A stretch of 64,000 nt of DNA from Sulfurihydrogenibium sp. YO3AOP1 (GTDB taxonomy: Bacteria; Aquificota; Aquificia; Aquificales; Hydrogenothermaceae), in assembly GCF_000020325.1 (NCBI RefSeq), contig NC_010730.1:1447501-1511500 (forward strand). The letters are read 5' to 3'. A program made the translations under genes and the position numbers. The notes below the pieces were generated by a model that worked only from the letters and a program-made list of their open reading frames with translations, made no database searches and was not told the origin of the DNA. Position 1 is the stretch's first letter; each line of letters opens with the position of its first letter. Positions 53,175 through 54,457 of the stretch are shown piece by piece.

Positions 53175-53612
53175 TTGAAAGTGAAAAAGTGAAAAGATGA
53201 GAAAGTTAGATAATTGACAGACAAAAACTATCTTATTTTTACCATAACCAGCGAGAACTCTTCACCTTTTACAAGGTGGGATTGAATTGCAAAAACTGGG
53301 AATGTTCAAAATTTTAACTAAGTCTGAAAATTAATTAACCTTTCGTCCGTCATTCTGCAGTCAGGCAAAGAATCCCCCTTTTTGTTTCTCTTCCTTTTAA
53401 AAGACATTTAAAAAGGAGATCCTTCACTTCGCTGCTATATAATAAAACCATCATTCGTGTCATTCTACAGCCGAGCGAAGAATCTCCTGTTTTTCTTACC
53501 TCTCACTTATTCACTTACTCACTTTCTCACCTTTTTAAAAGAGGAGATCCTTCGGACTTCGTCCTCAGGATGACAAGGAAAGGCAAATTTACAAAAATTT
53601 CGGAACACTCTT
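53175..53612. repeat. Gap with several dispersed repeats
   Basis: No gene. Inverted half at about 53349-53380 (CGTCATTCTGCAGTC...AAAGAATCCCCC); forward half GGAGATCCTTCACTTCGCTGC at about 53416 followed by the inverted GTGTCATTCTACAGCC...GAAGAATCTCC at about 53458; and a clean forward unit at 53540-53580 (GAGATCCTTCGGACTTCGTCCTCAGGATGACA in two halves). Motifs such as CTCACTTATTCACTTACTCAC fill the spaces. Confidence 0.8.
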
Positions 53613-53641
53613 TTGATAAATTATTAGATTTGTCGTATAAT
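53613..53641 (+). promoter_or_regulatory. Strong sigma70-type promoter of the structured RNA
   Basis: TTGATA (53613-53618), a 17-base spacer and a perfect TATAAT (53636-53641). This is the best-matching promoter in the window, yet no protein gene follows it on this strand. Confidence 0.75.
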
Positions 53642-53647
53642 ATACAT

Positions 53648-53865
53648 AAGCTTGGCTAATGTTTCAATAGAAACGTGCCAAGTTTGTTAAAAGGCAAGAA
53701 ATCAAGCTCCTGCGATTTCTACCCAATAGGTAGAATAGCAAGGCGGGTAAGTCTATACCCTAATGGGTATAGAGGGTCGAAGTCTAACAAGCTGATAGGA
53801 AATATCAGTTTTTGTTAGATGTAAGCCGACGGTAAGATTATATTATAATTCTACAAATTGCCTAG
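53648..53865 (+). ncRNA. Candidate structured non-coding RNA, unassigned
   Basis: Following the promoter at 53613 is about 215 bases without an open frame but full of hairpins: CTTGGC/GCCAAG enclosing GTTTC/GAAAC (53651-53682); AGAAATC/GATTTCT (53697-53720); TACC/GGTA (53720-53732); TCTATACCC-TAAT-GGGTATAGA (53752-53773, 9 bp); and TCTAACAA/TTGTTAGA enclosing CTGATA/TATCAG (53783-53819). Two possible long-range helices, AGGCAA (53692) with TTGCCT (53858) and TAGAAT (53731) with ATTCTA (53848), could close the whole. It converges on pyrE. I compared it by memory with RNase P, tmRNA, SRP, 6S and common riboswitches and saw no signature. The ends are estimates. Confidence 0.55.
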
Positions 53866-53899
53866 AATACTCTCAAACTGAATAAGAGAACTCTATATC

Positions 53900-54457
53900 T
53901 TACTTTTTCAAAAACTCTGAAACCTTAAACACCGATATTAGCTCAAAGCCTTCTTTTCTCAGATTCTCTTCTCCGCCTTCCTCTCTATCGACTAACGCAA
54001 TCACACCAAGAATATTTAATCCAAAATCTTTTGCCACTTTGCAAGCTTTAAGAGAAGACCCGGCTGTAGTTACAACATCTTCAAGAATAAACACACTTTC
54101 ACCCGGTTTTATATTTCCTTCAATCTGCTTTCCAGTGCCATGACCTTTCGGCTCTTTTCTTACCACAAAAGGCTTGATAGGATTTTTATTTATAAAAGAA
54201 ATTAAAGATGTAGCGTATGCAATAGGGTCAGCTCCAAGAGTTAAACCACCTACAGCATCAGGCTTTTTATCTTTAACCATCTCATAAATTAGATTTCCGA
54301 TTAAATATCCACCTTCCGGGTCTAATGTGATTGTTCTTAAATCCAAGTAATAATTACTCATTTTCCCGGAAGAAAGCTTAAAAATTGGCTCATCTGCTAC
54401 TTTTAAAGCTCTTTCTCTAATCAGCTCTTCTAATCTTTTTCTGTAATCCATCCTCAA
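53900..54457 (-). CDS. pyrE: Orotate phosphoribosyltransferase
   Basis: 185 residues. Pyrimidine synthesis: orotate + PRPP to OMP. The PRPP-binding signature is [18 protein letters not shown], with [14 protein letters not shown] as the flexible loop and [12 protein letters not shown] at the N-terminal side. It overlaps the next upstream gene by four bases. Confidence 0.96.

Follow-up and report, generated by a model that had tools for sequence, protein, structure and literature searches.

The window analysed here, a stretch of 64,000 nucleotides from the chromosome of Sulfurihydrogenibium sp. YO3AOP1, contains in its petC-pyrE gap a region that raises a simple question: what is the RNA expected behind a strong promoter that is followed by hairpins and by no gene? 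The promoter, TTGATA-17-TATAAT (53613-53641), is present as first described and matches the consensus at 11 of 12 positions. Downstream of it, the 222 nt from 53649 to 53870 fold with a minimum free energy of -77.1 kcal/mol, against -46.6 +/- 4.1 for shuffled sequences (z = -7.4), and none of 200 dinucleotide shuffles is equally good. The 9-bp stem closed by a TAAT loop, already pointed out in the preliminary description, is real (53752-53760 paired with 53765-53773). The claimed absence of an open frame also holds, the longest one being limited to 47 aa from a GTG start (53675-53818). The final residues of this frame, SNKLIGNISFC, are a relic of a TnpB C-terminus, which reads SNKLIENISFC in a complete transposon copy of the same genome. 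The RNA was rightly said to converge on pyrE (minus strand, 53900-54457) and is not the leader of this gene. One of the proposed long-range closures, that with TTGCC near 53858-53862, reaches outside the element, which ends at 53832, ~190 nt behind the promoter; from 53833 onward the DNA is chromosomal target.

The Rfam search of the whole window at gathering scores produced no match, and none appeared on the element up to E <= 10, where a single chance match of snoRNA type was obtained on the opposite strand (53883-53960). The tRNA and tmRNA search of the window was equally negative. The picture of a structured, non-coding RNA with its own promoter and no Rfam family is thus retained, but the RNA is no longer unassigned: it corresponds to the right end of an IS607-type element, that is, to an omegaRNA (reRNA).

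An IS607 right end under a left-end promoter

BLAST searches against 61 related genomes matched the RNA to a second place in its own genome (82% over 101 nt, E = 2e-20) and to G053 (79% over 62 nt, E = 6e-8), in both cases at the last codons and 3' end of a tnpB gene. A weak match in G022 (26 nt, E = 8e-4) was discarded, as no right end is found there. The homologues of 53699-53832 are the tnpB 3' ends of four IS607-type elements: G053 carries two of these, G047 (a Hydrogenobacter MAG) carries one, and the fourth lies elsewhere in the same genome. This fourth element is complete. Its first gene matches the IS607 transposase model NF033518 (MerR helix-turn-helix plus resolvase) with 191.7 bits, and its second gene matches NF040570, the model of RNA-guided TnpB, with 107.9 bits. 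The TnpB proteins of the three other elements are 78-79% identical to that of this copy, and 48 of the last 52 scaffold nucleotides are identical between the omegaRNA of the window and that of the complete copy. An origin of the RNA in the right end of an IS607-type tnpB can be regarded as practically certain. The parts of the locus are listed below, with positions in the window unless another record is named.

53285-53612, no strand assigned: dispersed repeat abutting the -35 box, in the place expected for the left tip (62 own-genome matches, many of which end at 53611-53612)
53613-53641, plus strand: left-end (transposon) promoter TTGATA-17-TATAAT; putative counterpart TTGACA...TATAAT before tnpA in the complete copy (L040:893-)
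53648-53685, plus strand: 5' hairpin of the predicted transcript (start predicted near 53648), recognised from the fold and absent from the complete copy on comparison with the L040 leader
53680-53698, plus strand: left-end leader AAGTTTGTTAAAAGGCAAG, matching AAGTTTGTTTAAAGGCGAG just before the tnpA ATG of the complete copy
53698-53699, no strand assigned: deletion junction, at which the leader meets tnpB sequence beginning at codon ~494 (2076 bases of L040 are lost)
53699-53832, plus strand: omegaRNA/reRNA scaffold of 134 nt from the tnpB 3' end and right end (BLAST, covariance model, alignment, pair counts)
53717-53735, plus strand: stem-loop A, TTCTACC-CAATA-GGTAGAA, fully paired though shorter than in the tnpB-borne copies
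53752-53773, plus strand: stem-loop B, 9 bp with TAAT loop
53776-53779, plus strand: helix C, 5' strand GTCG (UA to CG change in two copies)
53784-53818, plus strand: stem-loop D, subterminal right-end hairpin, CTAACA...TGTTAG with inner CTGATA/TATCAG
53827-53830, plus strand: helix C, 3' strand CGAC, guide-proximal, adjoining the terminal GG and pairing with GTCG at 53776-53779
53831-53832, plus strand: GG closing the right end, crossover dinucleotide of IS607 (five right ends, G057 empty site, G005 and G002)
53833-53852, plus strand: TAAGATTATATTATAATTCT, flanking DNA that would be the guide if ISXfa1 is taken as model (PMC10711439)

The left-end promoter of the complete copy, TTGACA...TATAAT, has behind it AAGTTTGTTTAAAGGCGAG and the tnpA ATG (L040:893-954). 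Behind the window promoter come a 38-nt hairpin, AAGTTTGTTAAAAGGCAAG (53680-53698) and, joined to it without a gap, sequence aligned to tnpB from codon ~494 (L040:3029). As this alignment establishes, an internal deletion of ~2.08 kb relative to the complete copy took tnpA and nearly all of tnpB and fused the left-end promoter to the omegaRNA; what is left at the locus is the promoter, the leader, the guide-RNA scaffold and the right tip. No tnpA or tnpB open frame is found in cis, so this is not a complete IS607 element. By its sequence the leader is clearly homologous to that of the complete copy, and a homology of the two promoters is faintly suggested by their position and a weak alignment. 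In the three Aquificaceae elements (L041 and L042 in G053, L043 in G047), tnpA is reduced to a short 5' remnant before an intact tnpB, which indicates that internal deletion happened elsewhere in the lineage too.

No left tip can be recognised at the window copy, where the dispersed repeat abuts the -35 box. The tip seems to have been lost or displaced, and the window copy is therefore probably no longer mobile. The repeat contains a ATCCTTCGGACTTCGTCCTCAGGATGAC-type core and ends in GGAACACTC; related repeats are present in the same gap of the sister strain G005 (L002:1573-1731) and beside the complete IS607 copy. Between this repeat and the petC-side flank common with G005, positions 53212-53284 have no G005 counterpart and contain ACAAGG; a decayed left tip may lie in this segment. 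A stretch resembling a CRISPR repeat (53271-53286) has one other match in the genome, with 2 mismatches, and no array. The left end of the complete copy is itself split by a DDE-type insertion sequence and a repeat (L040:700-890, L066:2680-3701), and TAAAACCTAT recurs at the joints. The tip of this left end, AAAGG/TTGTTTAACTGCTAAAC..., is therefore located ~1.2 kb upstream of tnpA; its alignment to the left ends of the G047 and G053 elements is better than that of all 500 shuffles.

A covariance model run on 112 genomes of the order retrieved five places, the window RNA and four tnpB 3' ends, and the window copy is the only one of them devoid of tnpB; the model was built from these same five sequences, and this search excludes further close copies while saying nothing on sensitivity to distant ones. 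No further stand-alone copy was detected in the 112 genomes with either BLAST or the model. The RNA is not a general Aquificales RNA, the other four places being tnpB 3' ends. The right ends of other Hydrogenothermaceae TnpBs (about 33% identity) have no visible similarity to it. The alignment could not be deepened, because, apart from the Hydrogenobacter copy already known, a contig scan with the TnpB alignment returned a single distant relative, from Campylobacteraceae and close to the end of its contig.

Conserved structure, boundary and guide

Homology to tnpB right ends and the deletion junction are completed by two other established features of this locus, a conserved RNA structure and a GG boundary. 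When the five right ends are aligned, a small number on which the whole structure comparison rests, the 25 pairs of four helices hold in 97.5% of cells, and 8 of the 25 have changed on both sides. The covariation score of 0.348 was reached by none of 500 shuffles (0.226 +/- 0.035), and slid controls remained at or below 0.12. Most of the covariation is carried by stem-loop B, in which 6 of 8 counted pairs changed on both sides. The structure first proposed from a single sequence is in this way backed by covariation. The window and the complete copy differ by 15 substitutions in 90 aligned positions, and 24 of the 25 pairs survive. As many pairs are kept in only 0.9% of runs when the complete copy is mutated at random to equal divergence; 0.65% of such mutants are as stable in their fold, or 1.5% at half the divergence. 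The old tnpB frame is broken in the scaffold stretch of the window by stops and a frameshift. Survival of the pairs in a broken frame favours, at the level of sequence comparison, a selection acting on the RNA after coding was lost. The RNA may nevertheless owe its preserved shape to the time before tnpB was lost, because the extreme tail of TnpB may tolerate truncation.

Recombination of IS607 elements takes place between GG dinucleotides, and the RNA scaffold of ISXfa1 includes the flanking nucleotide (PMC10711439). A GG terminates the right end in all five copies. When the flanks of a G053 copy are joined at this GG, the resulting 240-nt sequence is found ungapped and 97% identical in the congener G057, and this empty site confirms the GG boundary rule. 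The right flank of the window copy is homologous from the GG onward to sister strains G005 and G002, where the sequence is uninterrupted and preceded by AAGG. Conservation in the same petC-pyrE gap, envisaged in the preliminary description, accordingly fails, both sister strains reading through at the insertion GG. The element occurs as a single copy and in one strain only.

An AGG closes the left flank of each of the four other copies. This suggests an AGG-type TAM, which would agree with the G-rich TAMs described for other IS607 TnpBs (PMC10711439, PMC11061315), including those that use RAGATH-18-derived reRNAs (PMC11061315). The scaffold ends at the GG crossover dinucleotide, and the DNA that follows would act as the guide by analogy with the published case (PMC10711439). 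A one-base indel occurs soon after the GG, TAAGATT... in the window being replaced by TATAGATT... in the sister strains, so targeting of that allele by this guide would be poor. Elsewhere in the genome no guide target stood above chance; one AGG-flanked site was found with 3 mismatches, and controls gave similar sites.

The genome contains one complete IS607 copy, whose TnpB is encoded at 1,779,045-1,780,661 (L040:1546-3162), about 280 kb from the window RNA. In this partner TnpB the canonical RuvC-II Glu is missing (FISRNL), as are most of the zinc-finger cysteines, a condition conserved in the four copies. A conserved Glu, E416 (VDERYTSK), is located close to the alternative site known from one IS607 clade (PMC10711439), and catalysis by this protein may be possible on that ground. 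The unclean match of the guide to the sister-strain target and the missing RuvC-II Glu and cysteines of the partner weigh against present activity.

Interpretation and relation to known systems

We consider it likely that the RNA is the tnpB-less omegaRNA of a non-autonomous IS607 derivative, probably transcribed and possibly used in trans by a resident TnpB; that it is so used at present can be put forward only tentatively. According to this scheme, RNA polymerase would start near 53648 from the left-end promoter and produce a transcript made of the 5' hairpin, the ~134-nt scaffold and flanking DNA. The TnpB encoded at 1,779,045-1,780,661 would bind this transcript in trans and trim it. The ~16-20 nt past the GG would then serve as guide and direct TnpB to the AGG-flanked empty site in DNA that lacks the element. 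Such targeting would favour retention of the non-autonomous copy, just as guide use against the empty site has been proposed for TnpB in general to favour retention of elements (PMC8612924, PMC10278001). It appears rather unlikely, even if conceivable, that the omegaRNA has already become a free-standing gene (promoter, 5' hairpin, scaffold and guide) that works with a TnpB ~280 kb away, its locus being kept by the nuclease of another element.

The same IS607 derivation is compatible with a non-functional transposon scar, whose structure would be inherited from the days of tnpB and whose transcript, if any, would have no role. This is a serious possibility, to which we give a little less than even weight. 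The single copy in one strain, the missing left tip, the repeat lying against the promoter, the guide without a clean match to the sister-strain target and the lack of any other genomic target above chance are all expected of a dead relic. A scar accounts less well for a near-consensus promoter that has been kept, for a fold attained so seldom by random mutants (0.65%) and for stems maintained while stops and a frameshift broke the tnpB frame, even if the tolerance of the tail to truncation leaves this last point non-conclusive.

A more elaborate proposal is that of a domesticated guide RNA acting in trans for the host, for example by leading the resident, perhaps nuclease-poor, TnpB to a chromosomal or foreign target in the manner of TldR systems. 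An own promoter with a 5' hairpin, the presence in the same genome of a TnpB with an unusual RuvC-II site, and the idea, put forward in the literature, of a broken TldR locus as a continuing source of gRNAs in trans (PMC13418256) would fit such a function. It is made improbable by the lack of a plausible second genomic target and of vertical conservation in the 112 genomes searched with the covariance model. As for an independent host regulatory RNA unrelated to transposons, the original reading of this region, it drew on the strong fold, the promoter and the lack of an Rfam match; with IS607 tnpB right ends as homologues, a GG boundary that also contradicts it, and its absence from the same gap of the sister strains, it is scarcely tenable.

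The closest parallels bring out what is particular to this locus. The ISXfa1 reRNA/omegaRNA is likewise a right-end RNA of ~130-150 nt with several stem-loops, a GG end and a guide in the flank, and its guide-proximal bases form a pseudoknot with an apical loop (PMC10711439); this RNA has its tnpB in cis, whereas the window RNA has lost both tnpA and tnpB and stands immediately behind the left-end promoter. RAGATH-18-derived reRNAs (ISFba1, PMC11061315) are also orphan structured RNAs re-read as IS607 TnpB guide RNAs. They lie downstream of tnpB without overlap, in contrast to the window-type scaffold, which overlaps the tnpB 3' end in complete copies. The window RNA is not itself a RAGATH-18 RNA, as no Rfam model, that of RAGATH-18 included if it is in the set, matched the plus strand up to E = 10. 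The PATEs of Haloquadratum (PMC3119063) became protein-less through core deletion, some with short C-terminal remnants, but they are multicopy and of IS200/IS605 type and were described as DNA elements; the window element is IS607-type and single copy and has kept its promoter and a full guide-RNA scaffold. TldR guide RNAs (PMC13418256) provide a case of TnpB-family guides outside a complete mobile element, with trans supply suggested from a broken tldR locus. TldRs are, however, encoded beside their own gRNA and have defined host targets, and no host target was found for the window guide. IStrons (PMC4227781) are also non-standard IS605/IS607-type derivatives with a structured RNA part; they require a group I intron, and as no intron family of Rfam matched, over the window at gathering scores or on the element up to E <= 10, this reading is rejected. 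An Aquificales ncRNA survey predicted novel ncRNAs in A. aeolicus, its main text naming neither petC, pyrE nor transposons (PMC4227106). No paper on a promoter-fused full IS607 omegaRNA devoid of a cis nuclease was found by a search that covered few subscription journals. Such an RNA is a variant of the PATE and RAGATH-18-type cases.

As with RAGATH-18, an orphan structured RNA is explained here by its origin, and this is a warning that such elements will turn up when new RNAs are sought by promoter and fold. The locus indicates that a TnpB guide RNA can outlast the protein genes, an internal deletion placing the guide under the left-end promoter of the transposon. Should this RNA be loaded in trans, a resident TnpB is open to exploitation by non-autonomous elements, and nature contains unlinked guide genes, which would be a plausible stage on the way to guides of CRISPR type.
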